DNA from: a virus
Reading direction: 5' to 3' (one strand)
Virus record (IMG/VR): IMGVR_UViG_3300025133_000403
Coordinates: 1-31,952 of that record
DNA length: 31,952 nucleotides
Part shown: piece by piece, positions 735 to 22,734 of the stretch
How the letters are laid out: each line of letters begins with the position of its first letter
Position numbering within the stretch: the first letter of the stretch is position 1
Notes under the pieces: generated by a model
Database searches by the model: none
The model's input: only the letters and a program-made list of their open reading frames with translations
Told to the model about the DNA's origin: nothing
Position numbers and translations under genes: made by a program

Positions 735-1568
735 ATGCCAAAACAAATAGTGACTGTTGGACATGATGCTGAATTATTTTTATATGATGAAAATGATAAC
801 GCTGTGTCTGGTGTAGGTTTAATTGGTGGCAGTAAAGAATGTCCTAGAGAAGTTAATGGTGGGGCGGTTCAAGAGGATAATGTTATGGCTGAACTTAATA
901 TTGAGCCTTGCACTACTCCCACGCAGTTTGTAAGTAGGACTAATGAGGTTATGGAATCATTGAGTACTATCACATCAATGCACGGACTACACTATAAAAT
1001 AATGGATTATCAAAAGTTTGAGCCTGAATTTTTAAAATCTAAACAGGCTAAAATGTTTGGCTGTATGCCTGATTACAACATTTATTCATCAAAAGAAAAT
1101 GTTGTTGATACTTCTTCATTAAATAAAAATAATGTACGTACGGCAGGCGGTCATATACACATTGGGTTAACTAATCCAAATTTTCACCCTATGGCTAGAA
1201 GTAGTTTAGTTAAAGGCTGTGACATGTATGTTGGATTGCCATTAACAATATTAGAGGGAACATCACAAAGAAAAGCATTTTATGGTAAGGCGGGTTCATT
1301 CAGACATAAAGAATATGGAATTGAGTACAGAACGCCCAGTAATGTATGGTTAAGTAGTGATAACATAAAAATGTGGATATTTAATCAAATAAAGCTCGTG
1401 GCAAGTGATGTGGTATATAATTTATCACATAATAATCAACCTAGACATGAGCGGTGGATAGCAGATACAGGAGAAAATTCTTTTCAAACTATTATTAATT
1501 CTGGTCTTGTTGATGATGCTTGGGATTTATGTGAAAATTATGGTATAGAAATTCCTAAATTAAATTAA
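735..1568 (+). CDS. Putative COOH-NH2 ligase type 2 (glutamine-synthetase-fold amidoligase)
   Basis: Predicted ATP-dependent ligase joining a carboxylate to an amine, of the type 2 COOH-NH2 ligase family known from phiEco32-like phages. Visible hallmarks are VGHDAELFL at residues 8-16 (D11, E13, probable metal ligands), EDNVMAELNIEPC around 47-59, GGHIHIG at 138-144 (H140, H142), and the block RKAFYGKAGSFRHKEYGIEYRTPSN at about 179-203, split here as RKAFYGKAGSFR then HKEYGIEYRTPSN, with E197 and R199. The 277-residue length looks like a complete domain. The ribosome binding site is GGGAGA before 735. It leads a cassette with a second amidoligase, an amidotransferase, an ATP-grasp ligase and a cyclotransferase. 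Fold and general chemistry are fairly certain; the substrate is unknown. Confidence 0.85.
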   Translation: MPKQIVTVGHDAELFLYDENDNAVSGVGLIGGSKECPREVNGGAVQEDNVMAELNIEPCTTPTQFVSRTNEVMESLSTITSMHGLHYKIMDYQKFEPEFLKSKQAKMFGCMPDYNIYSSKENVVDTSSLNKNNVRTAGGHIHIGLTNPNFHPMARSSLVKGCDMYVGLPLTILEGTSQRKAFYGKAGSFRHKEYGIEYRTPSNVWLSSDNIKMWIFNQIKLVASDVVYNLSHNNQPRHERWIADTGENSFQTIINSGLVDDAWDLCENYGIEIPKLN

Positions 1569-1577
1569 CTACATTTT

Positions 1578-1593
1578 AGTAGTCTAGACTACT
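1578..1593. repeat. 16-bp palindromic repeat, copy 2 (perfect, extends to 24 bp)
   Basis: AGTAGT-CTAG-ACTACT is a perfect palindrome. Flanking TTTT and AAAA extend the perfect symmetry to 24 bp (1574-1597). It lies in the 51-bp gap between the type 2 amidoligase and the next gene, about 26 bp before the ATG at 1620. In RNA it could form a 10-bp stem, but no U-run follows on the plus strand, so a classical terminator is unlikely. Confidence 0.85.
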
Positions 1594-1619
1594 AAAAAAT
1601 TATTTGCGGGAGTGTGTAA

Positions 1620-2291
1620 ATGCATATAAGAGAAAGCAGACGAGATTTTAGACAACGATATAGAACTTGTACTGTTCTAGCTAAATTAAATAATGACGTA
1701 CAGAAATTATTTTATATTGACGATATTGATGAAGATTTAGAATATATTTCTGGTTCAGTTATTACTGACGATAATGAATGGTTGCCTACTAAATGGTATG
1801 TAGGAGATATTGAAATTGATTTTAGATTTCCAAAATTAGCATTATTGAATGCTAAGAAAGGTGTGGTTAGGCTATCTAGACACGCCACGCAACAATACAG
1901 ACAGTCTTTTAACCCTACAGTGATAAATATAATCCATTTGAACATGGAAACATGTGAAATATTTGACTTACCAACATTAAACTATGAGGATTTGAGTCAG
2001 CCATTATTTATAAAAGATATATTTTTTCCAAGTTATTTTACAGCTAGTGGTGCTATAAATAGAATTACGTCAGGAGATAGATACGCGGGTGCTATATCTA
2101 AAGATTTGTACATAAGTACATCTTGGAATACAGCAGGTTTATTTTTAGGATATAAAGAAGTATTGGTGGGTAAAATGAGAGAGGACTCAATGTACCCTAC
2201 TGTTGACTTGTTTAATGGTAATAATGATTTAATTGATTTAATACAATTACAAAATATAAGAGTCGGGGGAATGTTAAATGTCCAAAGATAA
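1620..2291 (+). CDS. Uncharacterised amidoligase-cluster protein (223 aa)
   Basis: ATG at 1620 with GGGAG about eight bases upstream. The product is soluble, with an Arg-rich N-terminus (RESRRDFRQRYR), a mixed central region, and a C-terminal part containing SWNTAGLFLGYKEVLVGK and EDSMYPTVDLF. No catalytic motif is recognisable, and there is no signal peptide or membrane span. Its last 14 bases overlap the start of the second amidoligase (2278), which indicates translational coupling and a shared pathway. It could be a substrate-binding partner or even the peptide that is modified, but neither can be shown from sequence alone. Confidence 0.75.
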   Translation: MHIRESRRDFRQRYRTCTVLAKLNNDVQKLFYIDDIDEDLEYISGSVITDDNEWLPTKWYVGDIEIDFRFPKLALLNAKKGVVRLSRHATQQYRQSFNPTVINIIHLNMETCEIFDLPTLNYEDLSQPLFIKDIFFPSYFTASGAINRITSGDRYAGAISKDLYISTSWNTAGLFLGYKEVLVGKMREDSMYPTVDLFNGNNDLIDLIQLQNIRVGGMLNVQR

Positions 2292-3504
2292 TATTGGTTC
2301 TATATTTGACAAGAATAAAAACGTATTCTCATATCAAGAGTCTATAGATTTTGTATTGCCAAGATGTATTATTGGTGTGGAAGTTGAACTAGAAAATATG
2401 AACGAAGCTTCTGGTTTTGCACACAACGGAGTACGTAGAGGCATTAATCATGGATACTTTAGTGTAGATTCTGAAAATGGGGGAGTATTATTTGGTACTG
2501 GGTATTGGAATGTAAAGAGTGACGGCAGTTTACGTAATTCTGGAGTAGAATTTGTTACTAAAAAATTATTTGGTAAGGATTTGAGTGTGGCTCTAGATGA
2601 ATTAAATGAATACCTTAATATCGAGAAAGAAAACTTAAGCGATATTCCTTCAGATAGGTGTAGTGTACATGTACATTTAGATGTTACTGACTTAAATAAG
2701 AATGAGTATGCTAGATTATTACTTGATTATGCTATATTTGAAAATGTATTATTTCATTATTGCGGTGTGAGCAGGAAAGAAAATTTATACTGTCTGCCAT
2801 TTGCTAAGTCTGACGATTTTAAACGAACTCTATCTGACATATTGACATCAGTAGAAAAAGACTTGGACTTTAAAAAACACGTTTCTTCTTTTCCAAAGTA
2901 TAGTTCATTAAATTTAAATGCTACGTCTAAGTATGGTAGTCTAGAATTTAGATTACATGGTGGCACATATGACATGATGCGAGTTAAAGAGTGGATTAAT
3001 ATAATTATGTGCCTGAAGAAAAATTGTATCAATAACAATACACACAATTTACATAGGGAAATATCTAGATATGGTGTAACAAATTATTTGGAAAAAGTTT
3101 TTGAGAACTATCATAGGGTACTCGACTACGACGACTGCGAAACAGATATAGTTGAGGGATTAAGGCTAGCCCAAGATATTATACTATACAATAATATGCA
3201 AGAAAGTAGTTTAGACTACTTCAAGCATAATTCTGTATTTGAGGGTGGTTTAGATTTAGATACAGAAAACATAACGAGTGAAATAATATCTGAACTTTTA
3301 GAATACTATGAAATTCCACACCCATTAGATAAGCATATATCTAGGCTAGAAAAGAAAATTAAGAGTGCAGGTTTAAAAAATTGGATAAATATATTTATGT
3401 ACAATGAAAAAATGAATAAGATACAACAGTATCAAGAAGAAGAATTAGAAGATTACGAAGAAGAACGTGACTATGATGAAGAAGAATATTATGACGAGGA
3501 GTAG
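2278..3504 (+). CDS. Putative amidoligase enzyme with acidic C-terminal tail
   Basis: Second ligase of the glutamine-synthetase-like fold, matching the putative amidoligase family (PF12224-type) by motif. Seen: IGVEVELEN at residues 32-40 (E35, E37, E39), KSDGSLRNSGVEFVTK at 80-95 (D82, E91), CSVHVHLDV at 128-136 (H131, H133), and SSLNLNA..GSLEFRLHGGT at about 209-230 (E223, R225, H227). These correspond to metal, ATP and carboxylate-binding positions in the family. The last ~25 residues are almost all Glu, Asp and Tyr, an unusual tail. The start overlaps the preceding gene by 14 bases. It contains palindrome copy 3 within the coding sequence. The substrate is unknown; it probably acts with the type 2 ligase and the ATP-grasp enzyme. 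Confidence 0.85.
   Translation: MSKDNIGSIFDKNKNVFSYQESIDFVLPRCIIGVEVELENMNEASGFAHNGVRRGINHGYFSVDSENGGVLFGTGYWNVKSDGSLRNSGVEFVTKKLFGKDLSVALDELNEYLNIEKENLSDIPSDRCSVHVHLDVTDLNKNEYARLLLDYAIFENVLFHYCGVSRKENLYCLPFAKSDDFKRTLSDILTSVEKDLDFKKHVSSFPKYSSLNLNATSKYGSLEFRLHGGTYDMMRVKEWINIIMCLKKNCINNNTHNLHREISRYGVTNYLEKVFENYHRVLDYDDCETDIVEGLRLAQDIILYNNMQESSLDYFKHNSVFEGGLDLDTENITSEIISELLEYYEIPHPLDKHISRLEKKIKSAGLKNWINIFMYNEKMNKIQQYQEEELEDYEEERDYDEEEYYDEE
3205..3220. repeat. 16-bp palindromic repeat, copy 3 (inside the amidoligase gene)
   Basis: AGTAGT-TTAG-ACTACT, identical to copies 1 and 6, lying within the second amidoligase and encoding SSLDY. The exact match inside coding sequence argues that the DNA site itself is under selection or was copied, because synonymous alternatives were available. 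Confidence 0.8.
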
Positions 3505-3507
3505 AAT

Positions 3508-4929
3508 ATGTGTGGTATAACAGGAGTGATTAATCTCAGTAATTTCAAATTTGGATTAACTGAAAAGAAATTATTTAAGGACTTACTAGTAGCTACGTCT
3601 TTACGTGGTAAACATTCTACTGGTTTGTTTACTGTTCCAACAAATAATCAAAAGCCTGTGCGAGTAATTAAACGTGCTGTTTGTGCGGGCGAATTTATTG
3701 AGTCGGACGTTTTTTCAGATATGATGAAAGAATTTAATGACTATAAGTATGTTATTGGACATACTAGATATGCTACCAATGGGGAAATTAATGATGAAAA
3801 TGCACACCCATTTGTCAATGAAAATATAATCCTAGTACATAATGGAAGTGTTGGTAATAAACATGAAATATGTGTGCTTGGAGACAAGAAAGGTACAGAT
3901 TGTGAGGTTGATTCTGAATCATTGGCTATTGCTTTAAGTAAAAATTCTATTGAAGATTTTATCCAAAAAGTAGAGGGAGCGTTTGCTATTGTGTGGTATG
4001 ACACTACACAGCGTAAGTTACATTTTATCCGCAATACTGAACGCCCTCTACATTTTGGCATAGTGAAAAATGAGGACATTATATTATTTGCATCAGAGGC
4101 GGAAGCATTATATTTTGTAGCAAAAAGAAATGAGGTAGAATTATCTAAGATATTTTCATTGAACGTGGGAACACTATTATCGTTTAATGAAAATCAAGAG
4201 TTTGAAACTAAAAAAATATATGATGGACAAAAGATTGCGACCACGTATGCACGTTATTACAATAATTACAGTAAATATTATGACAATGATTATGCGAGCT
4301 ATACTCCATATTCTAGACCTGCCCACGTACGTAGTACGACTAGGGTAGATGATTTATTTCCTGATGAGGAGGATAACAATCCATTTAAATGTATTGGAAT
4401 GTGTAAGTATGATGAAATAGAATTTACTTATGAATCTTTTGAACCATACTCAAATAATAATCGTGGTTGCATAATTGGTACGCGGACTCACTTTCCAAGA
4501 TACGAGGTTAAGGTTCATAATTTTCCAAAAGATAAGGTGGTTATGGAGGCGGGAGATGAGTGTGTAGGTAAATTAATATCCTTGGCAAAGGATAAAAAAT
4601 CAACTAAATATACTGATAAATACACTTTAATGTTAGATGCAAATAGCATATTAGAAATTATCGACGACCTTTATGATGAATATGATGAAGATATTATGTG
4701 GGACGATTATCCTTATAATGAAATGGGTCAAAAGTATCTAATTAATGGTAAATATGTTGGTTACGACGTATTTAGAAAGGCAACAGAAGATGGTTGCGAA
4801 GTTTGTTCCTGTCCAATCAATTCAATAGATGATTATACACTTGCTTGGACTGATATGAATCGCCCTATTTGTCAAGACTGCGCAAAGACAGGCGAGTATG
4901 ATTCACACATTGCAGTCACAGGAGTGTAG
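3508..4929 (+). CDS. Class II glutamine amidotransferase with C-terminal zinc-ribbon-like extension
   Basis: N-terminal-nucleophile glutaminase: the protein begins MCGITGV, so Cys2 becomes the nucleophile after Met removal. Family signatures follow: GHTRYATNG at 84-92, AHPF at 99-102, VHNGSVGN at 110-117, and DSESLA at 135-140. It should release ammonia from glutamine for an amide-forming partner. No synthetase or isomerase domain is attached. Instead there is a Tyr/Asn-rich linker around 245-270, then an uncharacterised region, then a four-cysteine C-terminal motif (C430, C433 or C435, C455, C458) that looks like a zinc ribbon. The ribosome binding site GAGGAG overlaps the preceding stop codon. 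It sits between amidoligase and ATP-grasp genes and is probably the ammonia donor of the cassette. Confidence 0.88.
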   Translation: MCGITGVINLSNFKFGLTEKKLFKDLLVATSLRGKHSTGLFTVPTNNQKPVRVIKRAVCAGEFIESDVFSDMMKEFNDYKYVIGHTRYATNGEINDENAHPFVNENIILVHNGSVGNKHEICVLGDKKGTDCEVDSESLAIALSKNSIEDFIQKVEGAFAIVWYDTTQRKLHFIRNTERPLHFGIVKNEDIILFASEAEALYFVAKRNEVELSKIFSLNVGTLLSFNENQEFETKKIYDGQKIATTYARYYNNYSKYYDNDYASYTPYSRPAHVRSTTRVDDLFPDEEDNNPFKCIGMCKYDEIEFTYESFEPYSNNNRGCIIGTRTHFPRYEVKVHNFPKDKVVMEAGDECVGKLISLAKDKKSTKYTDKYTLMLDANSILEIIDDLYDEYDEDIMWDDYPYNEMGQKYLINGKYVGYDVFRKATEDGCEVCSCPINSIDDYTLAWTDMNRPICQDCAKTGEYDSHIAVTGV

Positions 4930-4931
4930 TT

Positions 4932-5450
4932 ATGCACGATAAAGTAGAGTTCTCATTTGTACACGAAGATGGTAATACAAGTAAGCATTATATTGGATAT
5001 GACTACAGTAAAGCTGGCTCTTGCTGTGGTGTTCAGGTATTGGCAGACCTGCATATTGCATCTTGGAGAGCACAAATTGCTGATGATGGAGTAGATGTTG
5101 GATATTTTGCTACCACAGGATATAGAGATATAAGCAAGCAATTAAAAATAGAAGCATTTACAATTCTTAGGGATTACATTAACGCAGGTGGGCATAGGAG
5201 AAGTTGGAGTGCGGGTATGGCTGTATTATGTGATTATGTTAAGATGCGTGGTAATAATCGAAACGTATATTTAACTAGAGAATATGCTGAGTGGGACGAT
5301 TGGAATACTGACGGATTGGTAGTAAAGAATCCTAACTCTCCACATTATGTACAATTATGGACTAAGTATCTTACTAAGGTTAAGGTTAATCCTCATTATG
5401 TTGTTAGTGAAGTTCACGAAGTTACTAATGAGTCATTAGCAAATGCTTAG
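4932..5450 (+). CDS. Uncharacterised protein of the amide-chemistry cassette (172 aa)
   Basis: ATG at 4932 with AGGAG upstream, two bases after the amidotransferase stop; its end overlaps the ATP-grasp gene by eight bases. The product is soluble. Recognisable stretches include HYIGYDYSKAGSCCGVQVL near residues 19-37 and a Trp-rich part (EYAEWDDWNTDGLVV). The paired Cys residues and GYFATTGYRD motif give no family that I know. Tight coupling to neighbours on both sides suggests a role in the same pathway, for example as a substrate carrier or an unrecognised transferase, but function is not assignable. Confidence 0.75.
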   Translation: MHDKVEFSFVHEDGNTSKHYIGYDYSKAGSCCGVQVLADLHIASWRAQIADDGVDVGYFATTGYRDISKQLKIEAFTILRDYINAGGHRRSWSAGMAVLCDYVKMRGNNRNVYLTREYAEWDDWNTDGLVVKNPNSPHYVQLWTKYLTKVKVNPHYVVSEVHEVTNESLANA

Positions 5451-6204
5451 ACCAATAATATATCCTTATAAATTACAGTCTGAATCAGCTAAGGCATTAT
5501 CTAAATCCTTATCTGATTTAAGATGTAAACGTGTGCGTGAGAATGGTAATTATTCTTACTATAATAATCATATTATTATTAATTGGGGTAATCCTAGATT
5601 ACCTAATTGGATTAATGATGATGTAGTTATACTAAATAATCCCTCAGTAGTTCAGACTACTCAGAATAAACACAGTGCATTAGAAGTTATGCTTGGTAAG
5701 GTTCGTATTCCTAAATTTACTACACTTATGGAGTCAGCTAAAAGATGGATTAAAGAAGATAGAGTTGCTGTTGCTAGAACGTTATTGCGTGGGTGTGGGG
5801 GTAGAGGCATTAATTTAGTAAATGATGCAGATGATTTACCTGATTGTGCATTATACACGAGATATGTAAAGAAGTCTGATGAATATAGAGTACATATTTT
5901 TATGGGTACTATCATTTTTCTGCAAAAGAAAATGCTACGCAAGGGGAGTGAGGGAAACAATTTTCAAATACGAAACCATGCAAATGGTTGGATATTTGGT
6001 AGTAAAGGTATAGCTGTGCCACAAGATGTTGTGGAACAGGCATTATTAGCTGTCAAAGCACTTAAGTTAGATTTTGGAGCAGTAGATGTTGGGTGGCAGG
6101 AATCTTCACAAAAAGCATTTGTATATGAAGTTAATACTGCACCTGCATTAGAGGGAACTACTTTAAATTTATATAGTCAACACATACGGAGGTTATTGGT
6201 ATGA
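5443..6204 (+). CDS. ATP-grasp ligase (phage type)
   Basis: Predicted ATP-dependent carboxylate-amine/thiol ligase of the ATP-grasp fold, acting through an acyl-phosphate. Seen: the glycine-rich loop ARTLLRGCGGRGI at 111-123, the adenine/linker region YTRYVKKSDEYRVHIF at about 138-153, and the metal-binding end LDFGAVDVGW..FVYEVNTAPALEGTTL with D215, E229, N231 and E237. A preceding region of ~70 residues probably forms the pre-ATP-grasp domain. 253 residues is compact, like phiEco32-type phage members. Its start overlaps the upstream gene by eight bases and its end overlaps the cyclotransferase by four (ATGA). Palindrome copy 4 lies inside it. Substrate unknown. Confidence 0.85.
   Translation: MLRPIIYPYKLQSESAKALSKSLSDLRCKRVRENGNYSYYNNHIIINWGNPRLPNWINDDVVILNNPSVVQTTQNKHSALEVMLGKVRIPKFTTLMESAKRWIKEDRVAVARTLLRGCGGRGINLVNDADDLPDCALYTRYVKKSDEYRVHIFMGTIIFLQKKMLRKGSEGNNFQIRNHANGWIFGSKGIAVPQDVVEQALLAVKALKLDFGAVDVGWQESSQKAFVYEVNTAPALEGTTLNLYSQHIRRLLV
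5646..5661. repeat. 16-bp palindromic repeat, copy 4 (inside the ATP-grasp gene)
   Basis: AGTAGT-TCAG-ACTACT: both six-base arms are exact and only the centre differs from other copies. It is read in a different codon frame (SVVQTT) from copies 3 and 6, so the shared sequence is not explained by a shared peptide motif. Confidence 0.75.
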
Positions 6205-6620
6205 AGAAAATATTTGTATATGGTACGTTAAAACAACATCAACCAAACTTTGCCATTATTAAAGGTGGTATATTTTGTGGTGTTGGTAAATTAGATAAAT
6301 CCTATAAGTTTAGGATGGTTAGTCTAGGTGCATTTCCCGCACTTATTCCTGCTGATTCTGAACATTCTCAGGAAATTAATGGCGAGATATGGAATATAGA
6401 TAAAACTGCGTTCGAAAATGTAGAACACTTGGAAGGGTATCCATCATTTTACGATAGAGATAAAGTTATTGTTAAAGATTCTCAAGGAAATGAACATGAA
6501 TGTTTTGTTTATTTTATTCCTGATGAACTTAGTTCGAGGGAATTAAAAAGTGTAGAGACGGGAACTTGGCTTGGTCGTGAAGATTCAATGTATGGTATAA
6601 CATACAAATATAGTGCCTAA
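6201..6620 (+). CDS. Gamma-glutamylcyclotransferase-like protein (AIG2/GGCT fold)
   Basis: Predicted to cleave a gamma-glutamyl-amine or remove a gamma-glutamyl group as 5-oxoproline. The N-terminal FVYGTLK (5-11) is the family signature loop. E78 in HLEGYPSFYDR is at the usual position of the catalytic glutamate, and VYFIP and WLG segments match the small beta-barrel fold. 139 residues is normal for the family. The ribosome binding site GGAGGTT precedes ATG 6201, which overlaps the ATP-grasp stop. In pathways such as butirosin synthesis, a related enzyme removes a gamma-Glu protecting group added by an ATP-grasp enzyme; the adjacency of the two genes here suggests similar add-and-remove chemistry, which is inference. 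Confidence 0.85.
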   Translation: MKKIFVYGTLKQHQPNFAIIKGGIFCGVGKLDKSYKFRMVSLGAFPALIPADSEHSQEINGEIWNIDKTAFENVEHLEGYPSFYDRDKVIVKDSQGNEHECFVYFIPDELSSRELKSVETGTWLGREDSMYGITYKYSA

Positions 6621-18267: not shown

Positions 18268-18469
18268 GTGAAACCTCTAATTTCTTTTTTTCTAAGCTAT
18301 AATTTACTTGCTTAAAATATATACTAACAAGCAATGAACAAAAAGCTATTCCTAAAGCAAACAAAGTTGAATAATGATTGACGTAGGCAGCTATACAAGC
18401 CCAACCTGAGCAACCATATGTTACGAAATCTATGGCCTTAACCACAGTTTCGGGATGTTTATAAATCAT
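18239..18469 (-). CDS. Small two-span membrane protein, holin-like (76 aa)
   Basis: Short N-terminus, then hydrophobic segments at about 14-31 (DFVTYGCSGWACIAAYV) and 33-51 (YSTLFALGIAFCSLLVSIYF), followed by a charged tail (SLEKKKLEVSRGIKTEESS). This matches class II holin architecture. It overlaps the endolysin candidate by 29 bases and the giant virion gene by four. With the three-TM holin-like gene nearby, this is either a second holin, an antiholin or an accessory membrane protein. Confidence 0.6.
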   Translation of the reverse strand: MIYKHPETVVKAIDFVTYGCSGWACIAAYVNHYSTLFALGIAFCSLLVSIYFKQVNYSLEKKKLEVSRGIKTEESS

Positions 18470-21400
18470 GATTTTTCCCTTTTGGGTTTTTTAGCTCTTG
18501 GATGTGCCCTGGGATCCATACTCAGTGGTCCAAGATTGTTGATTAAAAATTCTTCATAAAAGTCAGTTAAAGAGTCAACCCACTCAGAAGGAACGTTTGC
18601 TACTGGCGTCATCCTAGCCATCTCTCTAGCCAAAGCTCTTGGATTACCAGAAGTTGCAGCTGTTAGCATTCTTTCTGATTTACTAAATGCTGGTCCTAAG
18701 ACTACAGAAAGTTTTCCTGCTCCGTGAGAGTGAAAGATAGCATCCAAACCAAATTGAGATACGCCAGCAATACCCCATCTTTCAGCAGCTCTTATCATCC
18801 ATCTTGTTTTATCATCAGGAAATTTTGTTTTATAAAATGGATTTTCTTCACCATATCTTATTTCATCTGTGAGGATATTAGAAATATGAGCTGTTAGTAA
18901 CATAGCCATTCCAGTCCCAACAGCATAGGTTGCGTTTCTTCCTGAAACTAAAGGCATTCCATTATCTCTGTAAGCTTGATTTATATCAGCACCCCAACGT
19001 CTTAATACTGTATTACCAATTAAAGTTGGAAATGCTTTAAGATGCTTTAACCAAGCTAACCCAGGGTTTGAATGCCACATAGGAACAATAGCTGGATTAG
19101 GAGTTAACACTGAATCTTCTGCAAAAGTAAGAGCACCTTTCTTAAGTTTTTCATAGAAAGCACCTTCTAATTTATGTCCTTCTTTAGCCCATTTTATTCC
19201 TTCAGCTAAATCTAATCCATAATATTGCATCAACTTTTGCATTCTAACTTCTTCTTGTGGAAACATATTTAATTTTTTACCAGCAGCTTTACGAGTAAAG
19301 TAATCTCTTACCATAGCATCGTATGTTCCTACTGCCAGATTGTTCATCCATTTTGTCCAGTAGTAAAGACCATTAGCACGAAATACTAAATTACCAGCAA
19401 CAGTAAAATCACCAGCAAACATTTGATTCATTCTTTCCATAGCTGCTATATCACCAGCTTTTCTTATTTGCTCAGTGATAATCATAGACCTAGTTTTATC
19501 TTTACCAAACAATTTAATATCTTTATTTATAGATCTTAATAATTGTAATGGCAAAGTATGAAATAACTCCCGTCCCATAGCTTTGCTATAAGCCCTTACT
19601 CCACCATGATACATGGGTAGAGGAGCTTCAGTTAATGAAGCAACAGATGCTAAAGGTAAAAGAGCAGCATTTAAAAGAGTTATATAACCTTTTTGAAATG
19701 TAATCCATTTCTTATAAGTATCAGATTTATAAATATGCTGAAAAGCAGCCCATAAATCTAATACTTGTTGAACTTCATATTGTCTTAGAGGCCTTCCACC
19801 AGCAGCCGTAGATGCAGCTAATTCTGCGTTTGCTCTGTTGAGCCTATCGTACAATAATTCATTATATGGTCCATTTATTTTTGCATAGGATGTTCTTGCT
19901 GCCGTATCTTCTGCATATTTAGTCATTCTTTTATATACACTTTGTTCTAATAATGGTCCTAATTGAGCATCAGTAATATCAACAAGAACTCTTTCATAAT
20001 CAATACCACTAGCTTTCTTAGCAGCTACTTTAGCTTCTTTAGCATTTTTAGCAATACCTAAAGCCGCTACCTCACTTGCACGTAAAAATTCAGGAGTCAT
20101 TCTTACAGAACCATTGTTTTCTAAGGCGTAGTCAACCATTCTTTGAGCTGCTTCCCTGGCACTATTATTTTCAATTCCTTTACCAAGTTCATCCATAGCT
20201 TTTTTACTACTTTGAAATGCTTTAGTTAATATTTCAACTGCTTGTTCAGGATTTTTTTTCATCCACTTATGATCATAAACCCTGTGTAAGTGGCCCTTTG
20301 TATATTCTAAGTCTGTAAAAACTTCTTTAGCTTCTTTAAATATTTTATCATCCAAAGCTCTTATATCTTTAGCAGCTTGTTTCATATTGTTAGGTATCTT
20401 AGCCAGTACTTCAGGAGAAGTTGTTGGATCTAAAGCTAAAGATAATTGTTTATTTTGTTTTTCAGTTATGACCCATCCACCTCTACCACCAACTCTTCTA
20501 GGAGTAATATTTTTAAGACCTGGAACCCATTTAGGTTTTATCTTAAAGAATATATTATCTAAATCAGTCATATACTCACCAGTTTTGGTATGCCTCATTG
20601 AATGATAACTATCCATAACTTTAGGAGTTTTTGAGTAAGCTTCTGGCCTCCACAAACTATCTTGTATCTCAGCCATTGCTGGAGAAAGTTCTCTTAATTG
20701 CGTATTTGTACCTGGAAACTTAGAATCAGTTTTAAATATAGATATAGCTCTACCACCAGCTAAATTAATTAACCAATTGAGTCCACTCATCTGAGTACTA
20801 TCAAGCATTCCAACTCCTTTAGTAGCTGCTAAAACTTGAGGAGATGGTTCAACAGATTTCTCAACTGGTTTAGTTGGATCTATTTCTATATTTGTAGCGT
20901 CTTTTACTTTGTCTACTGATTTTGTTACCTGTTCAGGAACGGCTTTCCTAGCATTTAATACATCACTTATTTCAAATCCTTCTAACTTACCTTTGAATAT
21001 TTCTTCATAGGTTTTTAAGAAAGGATTAATTATATTTTCACCACCTTCCGCTGACACTTCTTTATCAATAGCTTCCTTTATAGACTTAGGACCTTTAGCA
21101 ACTTCTTCTTTAGGTATTATAGTTTCTTTAGCACTGCTCTTTATAGTATTAGCTTCAGAGTTATTATATACTTCACTATTTTTAACAGCATTACCCAAGG
21201 CTTTTACTTCAGGAGTTTCAGGAATAATCTTACCAGTACTTGCTATTTCTTGTAATTGAGCAACCTCATATTCAGAATAAAATACAGGTTTTCCGTCTTT
21301 TCCTTTTACATGATACCCTCTTTGTACAAGAGTTTCTCCAGCCTTAGCTGCTGCTTGACCAGCTTTTATATAAGTAGGATCTTGTTTAGTAGATAAAAAT

Positions 21401-22734
21401 AATCTACCACTCTCTGCTAGAAGGGCGGGAGTAATAGCACTTAGAATTTCTTGTGCTTTAGGGCGGGTAATATTAGCTGGAACTTTTCCTTGAGAGTCCC
21501 TTACTAATTTAGATATTCTTTTAGCAGCATTAATAGCTTCAGTTTTTATTATAGCTTCATCAAAATTCTTTGCGAATGATCCTTTTCCAACAACTCCATT
21601 ATAATATCCAGGAATAACTTCTCTATTTACATGCTGTATAAACTTTTTAACATATGTGCTTTCTGCAAAAGGTCTTCCTGTTTTAGGATTGTTACCAACT
21701 GAAGCTCGGAATTGTCCATAATACAAATCAGGAGTATCCCATTTTGTCACTTGTTCTTTTACAAATTGCATATCTCTTTGTTCTACATAACGACCAAATG
21801 GTTTATCAAAATCTTTAACCACTTCAGCAAGAGACTCTACTGGCTTGCCTTCTTCTATAGTTGGTTTAGTTTCCTTAAACGCACGAATCTCTTCATGAAG
21901 AGTTCTATACTGAGCTTCAATACCTTCTGGGGTTAATGTTGGATGTGATTTTTTTAATACTTTACTAAAGTGGTCAAAAGATACAACTAGTCCAGGAGTT
22001 TTATTTTGTTCAAAAGTAGGAGCTTTCCACTCCCCCTTTGCTCTCCTACCTACTGGTAACTTAAACCTACTTGTTTCAGTTCCAAATACAAATTTATCAG
22101 CAGGAGCTAATGTTGATGCTTTCTTTGCACCAGCTTTTATTGCTTTACCACCAATAATAGGAGCGAGTAATCCGACTCCTTCTATTGCTGTTTGAGTTGC
22201 GGTTGCAAGAGCGGGATCATTAGTTTGTTCAAATACATTGTCGCCAGCTGATTTGCCTAGAGAACTTATTCTTCCAAAAAATTGTTCATCTAATAGAGTT
22301 AATACTCTTTTGCCAGCTTCTGTTTGAGCTTCGAAAGGTTTTATTCCAGTAAAAGGAATTTTAGTTTTAGATACTACATCTTCAAGAACGTGGTTAAATA
22401 CATCAGCATAATCATCCCAATTACCTTTTTTGAGAGAATCATATGCTCCTACTGCAGCTGCTATAGGAGAACCAAAAGTAAATCCAGCAGCTCCTTTAAT
22501 TAATCCCTCAACTGTTCCTGGCATGCTTTTAATAACATTTCCAACAGTACGTCCGCCTTCAGGGCCTTCATAAGGCTCAATTCCTGGGGTTCCCATAGTA
22601 GGAGAATCTTCCCACCATTTTTGAGTATTACTTATCTCACTTGGAGTGTCCTCCCACCATTTATTAGATCCACCTAAATTTTGTTGTGGCTGAACTAATT
22701 CTTGTTGGGGAGCATCTTGCCACCATTTAGTCAT
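18466..22734 (-). CDS. Giant internal virion / DNA-ejection protein (1422 aa)
   Basis: Likely packaged in the head and released during infection, comparable by size and position to T7 gp16-type ejection proteins. The N-terminus carries three near-identical tags, KWWQDAP (3-9), KWWEDTP (25-31) and KWWEDSP (39-45), followed by a Pro/Gly-rich stretch and a hydrophobic segment (about 75-95). A long helical, Lys/Glu/Ala-rich middle and a C-terminal part with hydrophobic stretches (for example ITLLNAALLPLASVASL; YAVGTGMAMLLTAHIS) follow. No peptidoglycan-cleaving catalytic motif is recognised. It is the largest gene in the window and the last structural gene before the lysis cassette. Confidence 0.75.
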   Translation of the reverse strand: MTKWWQDAPQQELVQPQQNLGGSNKWWEDTPSEISNTQKWWEDSPTMGTPGIEPYEGPEGGRTVGNVIKSMPGTVEGLIKGAAGFTFGSPIAAAVGAYDSLKKGNWDDYADVFNHVLEDVVSKTKIPFTGIKPFEAQTEAGKRVLTLLDEQFFGRISSLGKSAGDNVFEQTNDPALATATQTAIEGVGLLAPIIGGKAIKAGAKKASTLAPADKFVFGTETSRFKLPVGRRAKGEWKAPTFEQNKTPGLVVSFDHFSKVLKKSHPTLTPEGIEAQYRTLHEEIRAFKETKPTIEEGKPVESLAEVVKDFDKPFGRYVEQRDMQFVKEQVTKWDTPDLYYGQFRASVGNNPKTGRPFAESTYVKKFIQHVNREVIPGYYNGVVGKGSFAKNFDEAIIKTEAINAAKRISKLVRDSQGKVPANITRPKAQEILSAITPALLAESGRLFLSTKQDPTYIKAGQAAAKAGETLVQRGYHVKGKDGKPVFYSEYEVAQLQEIASTGKIIPETPEVKALGNAVKNSEVYNNSEANTIKSSAKETIIPKEEVAKGPKSIKEAIDKEVSAEGGENIINPFLKTYEEIFKGKLEGFEISDVLNARKAVPEQVTKSVDKVKDATNIEIDPTKPVEKSVEPSPQVLAATKGVGMLDSTQMSGLNWLINLAGGRAISIFKTDSKFPGTNTQLRELSPAMAEIQDSLWRPEAYSKTPKVMDSYHSMRHTKTGEYMTDLDNIFFKIKPKWVPGLKNITPRRVGGRGGWVITEKQNKQLSLALDPTTSPEVLAKIPNNMKQAAKDIRALDDKIFKEAKEVFTDLEYTKGHLHRVYDHKWMKKNPEQAVEILTKAFQSSKKAMDELGKGIENNSAREAAQRMVDYALENNGSVRMTPEFLRASEVAALGIAKNAKEAKVAAKKASGIDYERVLVDITDAQLGPLLEQSVYKRMTKYAEDTAARTSYAKINGPYNELLYDRLNRANAELAASTAAGGRPLRQYEVQQVLDLWAAFQHIYKSDTYKKWITFQKGYITLLNAALLPLASVASLTEAPLPMYHGGVRAYSKAMGRELFHTLPLQLLRSINKDIKLFGKDKTRSMIITEQIRKAGDIAAMERMNQMFAGDFTVAGNLVFRANGLYYWTKWMNNLAVGTYDAMVRDYFTRKAAGKKLNMFPQEEVRMQKLMQYYGLDLAEGIKWAKEGHKLEGAFYEKLKKGALTFAEDSVLTPNPAIVPMWHSNPGLAWLKHLKAFPTLIGNTVLRRWGADINQAYRDNGMPLVSGRNATYAVGTGMAMLLTAHISNILTDEIRYGEENPFYKTKFPDDKTRWMIRAAERWGIAGVSQFGLDAIFHSHGAGKLSVVLGPAFSKSERMLTAATSGNPRALAREMARMTPVANVPSEWVDSLTDFYEEFLINNLGPLSMDPRAHPRAKKPKREKS

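Follow-up and report, generated by a model that had tools for sequence, protein, structure and literature searches.

Genes of the amidoligase cassette

The DNA examined here, the linear virus record IMGVR_UViG_3300025133_000403 (31,952 bases, in its full length referred to as the window), stems from a marine virus that infects bacteria. Between positions 735 and 6620, seven plus-strand genes follow each other in the order CL1, U, CL2, GAT, a gene for a 172-aa (amino acid) protein, GRASP and GGCT. The set belongs with the amidoligase or "peptidoglycan modification" cassettes of phages: three ATP-dependent enzymes that form amide bonds (two ligases of the glutamine synthetase (GS) fold and an ATP-grasp ligase), a glutamine amidotransferase (GATase) and a gamma-glutamylcyclotransferase (GGCT) are encoded on one strand beside replication genes. 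A first-pass annotation of the window had placed the five enzyme genes correctly; four of the products score above Pfam cut-offs and GRASP is assigned by phrog_2599. It overlooked the two inner genes at 1620-2291 and 4932-5450, and it missed that the former (U) is a conserved sixth gene and that the module has a published name. The overlapping frames it described are present at three junctions (1620-2291/2278, 4932-5450/5443 and 5443-6204/6201), whereas 2-51 bases separate the genes at the remaining junctions. In pairwise comparisons with five close relatives, dN/dS is low (0.12-0.25 for the core enzymes, 0.17-0.35 for GGCT), indicating purifying selection, and the reading frames are thus not due to chance.

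The proteins were compared with those of 85 loci, which comprise contig stretches from a profile scan of viral contigs (80 kept of at least 315 stretches with CL1 relatives), close relatives and reference phage loci, the window included. All were scored with profiles built for this analysis, and 56 loci with enough flank form a well-covered subset. Conservation of catalytic residues was scored on profiles of 50-88 relatives per family. For each family, the window protein has the expected active-site residues, and these hardly vary among the relatives, with one deviation in GRASP described below. Intact catalytic residues and a place for both ligases in amidoligase families were the two points on which the first-pass annotation had made its proposal depend, and both hold, the former with a reservation for GRASP.

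CL1 (735-1568) is a phiEco32-like COOH-NH2 ligase type 2 (PF14395, 57.3 bits, cut-off 25; phrog_3815, 3.5e-63), in which D11/E13, E53, H140/H142 and E197/R199 are kept at 82-85 of the 85 loci. Its AlphaFold model (pLDDT 95.6) has a compact GS-type fold. Among solved structures, the YbdK relatives 1tt4 and 1r8g (Z 14-15) come closest, together with glutamate-cysteine ligase from plants, Dop/PafA and GS; matches reach Z 14.7 over 225 residues at an rmsd of 3.4. As ranks within one Z unit tie, this ranking does not reveal a substrate. CL2 (2278-3504), which ends in an acidic low-complexity tail, belongs to Amidoligase_2 (PF12224, 47.6 bits, cut-off 22; phrog_7469, 8e-53). Its ExE, HxH and ExR motifs correspond to E35/E37, H131/H133 and E223/R225 and are kept in 82 of 82 cases. 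Neither ligase has a sequence-level match in the PDB.

GAT (3508-4929) combines a class II glutamine amidotransferase domain (GATase_6, PF13522, 64.7 bits, cut-off 27) with a C-terminal zinc-ribbon-like CxxC...CxxC motif (C430/C433/C455/C458, window positions 4795-4881) that occurs in most family members. The conserved residues, aligned to GlmS (1xff), are the N-terminal cysteine nucleophile C2, H85/R87, N112-G113 of the oxyanion hole and D135. No Pfam model scores above its cut-off for GRASP (5443-6204), which is recognized by phrog_2599 (2.8e-68). Its family profile matches RimK structures (5zct, E 7e-7) and, as remote relatives, D-Ala-D-Ala-type ligases. K76, E147/R149, K163, D215, E229 and N231 are kept at 79-81 of 81 loci, while the second ATP-binding lysine of RimK (on the KL.EG strand) aligns with R-T of ART.L.G in GRASP. 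Scores with the NCBIfam models for RimK and GlmS are far under the cut-offs (29 bits for GRASP with TIGR00768, cut-off 143.4), so that GRASP and GAT are relatives and not orthologues of these enzymes. GRASP is classified from its sequence as a RimK-like ATP-grasp ligase, not as RimK. GGCT (6201-6620) is an AIG2-like protein (GGACT, PF06094, 73.7 bits, cut-off 22.8) matching 2kl2/3jub, AIG2-like domain-containing protein 1. Its YG(S/T)L motif is Y7-G8-T-L10 and the catalytic glutamate is E78; Y7-G8 and E78 are present in 48 of 49-50 relatives.

U (1620-2291) separates the two ligases and belongs to a phage-only family (phrog_11055/4877). It is present at 71 of the 85 loci. Of the 69 loci that carry U along with all four core enzymes (CL1, CL2, GAT and GRASP), 68 have it no more than 150 nt from CL2. 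Its absence is mainly confined to a distinct clade with the gene orders CL1-GAT-CL2 or CL1-ATP-grasp-...-CL2 and amounts to two changes on the tree. The AlphaFold model of U (pLDDT 93) has an N-terminal barrel resembling Sm, tudor and Ski2-insertion domains (Z 5-7), possibly a common arrangement, and there is no whole-fold match among the PDB matches listed. Its close structural relatives in a viral library come from phages as well, and Salinivibrio phage CW02, the source of one of them, is a listed carrier of the cassette (PMC5498523). G184 is the only strongly conserved residue of U; the lack of any strongly conserved polar residue disfavours a role as an enzyme. The 172-aa protein (4932-5450) is specific to the lineage (8 of 85 loci, dN/dS 0.09-0.20) and gave no family match in profile searches.

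Occurrence of the cassette and its gamma-glutamyl-removing enzymes

CL1 is found in 316 phage records in addition to the contig stretches mentioned above. At the 85 loci, CL1 was counted 85 times, CL2 and GAT 82 times each, GRASP 81 times and GGCT 49 times. The two GS-fold ligases, the class II GATase and the ATP-grasp ligase occur together at 55 of the 56 well-covered loci. Wherever all four are present they share a single strand (81/81), and in 77 of these 81 cases no more than 150 nt separate GAT from CL1 or CL2. Near relatives of the window with flanking sequence have all kept the whole set. A more distant relative (L130; helicase 66% and primase 42% identical) has no cassette gene in the 2.6 kb upstream of its primase (L130:1-2641), and the cassette is therefore dispensable at that distance, unless it has moved. 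Non-phage bacterial homologues were also considered and rejected: a scan of species genomes returned eight loci, all in metagenome-assembled genomes and all with other cassette genes or C26/GGCT, and the two examined for neighbours (L110, L111) adjoin primase/helicase-like and exonuclease/polymerase-like open reading frames.

According to later papers, the cassette was predicted by Iyer in 2009, and a 2013 paper by Hardies is said to be a further primary source. Cultured phages have a matching gene order with replication genes alongside, which bears out the kinship with the phiEco32-like set claimed in the first-pass annotation. RIO-1-, PA11-, LUZ24/tf- and phiEco32-like cassettes have the four core enzymes and GGCT in common with the window, likewise encoded on a single strand next to replication genes, and phage tf and Bruynoghevirus share the order CL1-U-CL2-GAT-ATP-grasp-GGCT. 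The window proteins differ in being only about 22-41% identical to those of the cultured phages, in the lineage-specific 172-aa gene that takes the place of DUF7195, and in that no C26 gene was detected in the window. Named hosts of the CL1-bearing cultured phages are Gram-negative. A seven-gene "peptidoglycan modification cassette" has been described for RIO-1-like phages, conserved in phiEco32, 7-11, PA11, tf, MR299-2, LUZ24, PaP3 and CW02, with the proposal that it introduces three unusual linkages into wall peptides and blocks superinfection (PMC5498523); the peptidoglycan proposal is repeated elsewhere (PMC6256558, PMC11945000). For the same set in Poriferisphaera phage ZRK32, with the gene order of the window, a role in nitrogen metabolism was proposed instead (PMC10945688). 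The literature searched holds no experiment, measured product or phenotype for the cassette since its prediction.

When neighbouring genes were clustered, one further family proved common; its members, encoded at 46 of the 85 loci, resemble class I GATases. These proteins are members of peptidase family C26 (PF07722, 62-85 bits, cut-off 20.5) with invariant active-site Cys, His and Glu, and the gamma-Glu-GABA hydrolase PuuD falls into the same class. GGCT occurs alone at 34 loci, the C26/PuuD-like enzyme alone at 31, both at 15 and neither at five. Three of these five loci (L079, L091, L103) lie at contig edges, one (L085) has CL1 alone and the fifth is Salmonella phage 7-11, where a GGCT (gp086) is annotated at the margin of the stretch that was scored. 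Accordingly, an enzyme cleaving gamma-glutamyl groups was scored at 55 of the 56 well-covered loci, and the 56th, that of phage 7-11, has GGCT by annotation. By plain count, GGCT and C26 are negatively associated (Fisher p 2.8e-7). In our reading, two unrelated enzymes stand in for each other in a single function, and this speaks for a gamma-glutamyl intermediate that has to be taken off again.

Surroundings of the cassette

In the window, the early genes are on the plus strand and the late genes on the minus strand. Apart from the cassette, which adjoins the primase, helicase and polymerase genes, profile searches identified genes for a primase, a helicase, a DNA polymerase, an exonuclease and a ribonucleotide reductase, followed by holin, head-closure and tail-fibre genes. 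Positions 18466-22734 encode a late protein of 1422 aa that matches profiles of virion-structural proteins and endolysins and may be a lysin, either injected or associated with the tail. Counts of promoters and terminators were the same as in shuffled sequence, and searches of the window found neither tRNAs nor Rfam elements.

Immediately upstream of CL1 lies a plus-strand gene for a 108-aa protein (405-731), which is lineage-specific (8 of 85 loci) and probably outside the pathway. As its C-terminal FDWEI does not vary among seven relatives, the protein was considered as a LysW- or Pup-like carrier. This idea was rejected: the last codons, GATTGGGAGATA, are identical at the DNA level in the seven relatives, third positions included, and lie a few bases ahead of the next start codon, so that GATTGGGAGATA is most simply taken for the ribosome-binding site of the gene starting at 735, which explains the conservation. 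In L005 and L022 a different small gene uses this site. LUZ24/tf-like phages encode, directly upstream of CL1, two adjoining proteins with a CFG/CFA motif near the N-terminus (L010:1777-3590, L014:4234-6171; phrog_7973 and others), and proteins of similar size precede the cassette in other lineages. On the downstream side of the cassette, 17 loci of C26-bearing clades encode small DUF7685-like four-cysteine peptides, many of them acidic-tailed (L068:9141-9314, L057:9108-9356, L098:8878-9111 and 14 further loci). A constant small substrate peptide was rejected, as these zinc-knuckle peptides do not occur in the window and their distance to the cassette varies.

Proposed pathway and alternatives

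Judged by hydropathy, the window's cassette proteins lack membrane segments; what is modified is therefore probably a cytosolic precursor, a small molecule or a protein. The cassette probably serves to build a peptide-like group, protected by glutamate, on some component of the host cell. More specifically, the proteins would cooperate in the cytosol: a GS-fold ligase would join glutamate via its gamma-carboxyl group to an amine for protection or activation, the remaining ligases would form one or two amide bonds that lengthen this group, GAT, encoded next to a GS-fold ligase, would provide ammonia for an amide, and U may act as a scaffold or substrate-binding subunit. GGCT, or the PuuD-like C26 hydrolase in other phages, would finally take the gamma-glutamyl group off. 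As acceptor, a free amine or a cytosolic precursor of cell-wall peptide would be most likely. We regard a joint pathway of this kind, in which a gamma-glutamyl cap is put on and then removed, as evenly poised between right and wrong. It is consistent with the retained catalytic residues, the co-occurrence of the core enzymes, their common strand, the closeness of GAT to a ligase, the presence of a gamma-glutamyl-cleaving enzyme at the well-covered loci, the invariant C26 active site, the structural proximity of CL1 to YbdK and other gamma-glutamyl/carboxylate-amine ligases, the missing membrane segments, and a replication-gene neighbourhood with the same order in cultured phages.

The best evidence for a pathway via a removable gamma-glutamyl intermediate is the interchange of GGCT and C26, which lends indirect support to the add-then-remove logic suggested in the first-pass annotation. 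Two known systems work along such lines. In butirosin side-chain assembly, the ATP-grasp enzyme BtrJ adds a gamma-glutamyl group and the GGCT BtrG removes it; the window shares this pairing in its adjacent ATP-grasp and GGCT genes with their 4-nt overlap. Unlike the butirosin system, the window has two GS-fold ligases, and a Pfam search of the cassette reading frames found no acyl-carrier-protein family, so that butirosin serves only as a comparison for how such a system may work. In the Puu/Spu pathway of gamma-glutamylated polyamines, the GS-fold ligase PuuA acts with the C26 hydrolase PuuD, a combination of enzyme types seen at 46 of the 85 loci. In the window, however, GGCT takes the place of the hydrolase, CL1 and CL2 represent amidoligase families other than that of PuuA, and no oxidase or dehydrogenase is among the cassette genes. 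Several points weigh against a removable cap. Corrected for kinship, the complementarity of GGCT and C26 is not significant, the contrasts being too few (6-8 independent ones, 0 in the same direction and 1-3 in the opposite one), and both enzymes could instead clear side products. The GATase may amidate the product or serve another acceptor, which the data do not distinguish, and the literature searched contains no measured substrate or product.

According to the published proposal, the three ligases add unusual linkages to the stem peptides of wall precursors, blocking superinfection or preparing lysis. The Gram-negative hosts and the remote relation of GRASP to D-Ala-D-Ala-type ligases fit this idea, but the cassette proteins look cytosolic, so that precursors alone would be within reach, the cassette comes without a wall-binding or transport partner, and no experiment was found in the literature searched; in full, the proposal is possible, though doubtful. 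Tagging of a phage or host protein with amino acids or a small tag by the RimK-like ligase and the GS-fold ligases, in the manner of RimK, Pup or tubulin glycylase, is unlikely in our view. GRASP is indeed nearest to RimK, the S6-glutamate ligase, CL1 is structurally near PafA/Dop, among others, and U could bind the target as a subunit; yet GGCT enzymes are established to act on small gamma-glutamyl compounds, and there is no constant small substrate protein, the products of 405-731 and 4932-5450 being lineage-specific.

A shift of host glutamate, glutamine or glutathione pools would agree with the proposal made for phage ZRK32, with its identical set and order. We consider it improbable: glutathione needs neither two divergent amidoligases nor U nor a class II GATase, and the order and co-occurrence of the four ligase and GATase genes argue for one dedicated pathway. 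Modified nucleobases in phage DNA, among the targets named in the first-pass annotation, are very improbable. The cassette does lie beside primase, helicase and polymerase genes, and one relative has pyrophosphohydrolase, thymidylate synthase and DNA methyltransferase genes nearby, but the cassette has no constant companion among enzymes of DNA hypermodification, primase and C26 being the only common families in the survey of neighbours, and nothing in our data points to nucleobases.

Taken to its full extent, the protecting-group pathway would be a mode of phage biosynthesis in which a peptide-like compound is made on a gamma-glutamyl-capped amine, GGCT and C26 are interchangeable removers of the cap, the product is diffusible or bound to a precursor, and U represents a new scaffold family, all this in many lineages of phages infecting Gram-negative bacteria. 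As a whole, this picture is speculative and rather unlikely to be correct in every part. What the present analysis adds to the earlier prediction are occurrence statistics, the constant parts of the module, U as an almost constant component and two interchangeable enzymes for removal of the gamma-glutamyl group. The module is widespread in phages, and its constant parts together with U and the interchange of GGCT and C26 make a prediction that has stood open concretely testable.

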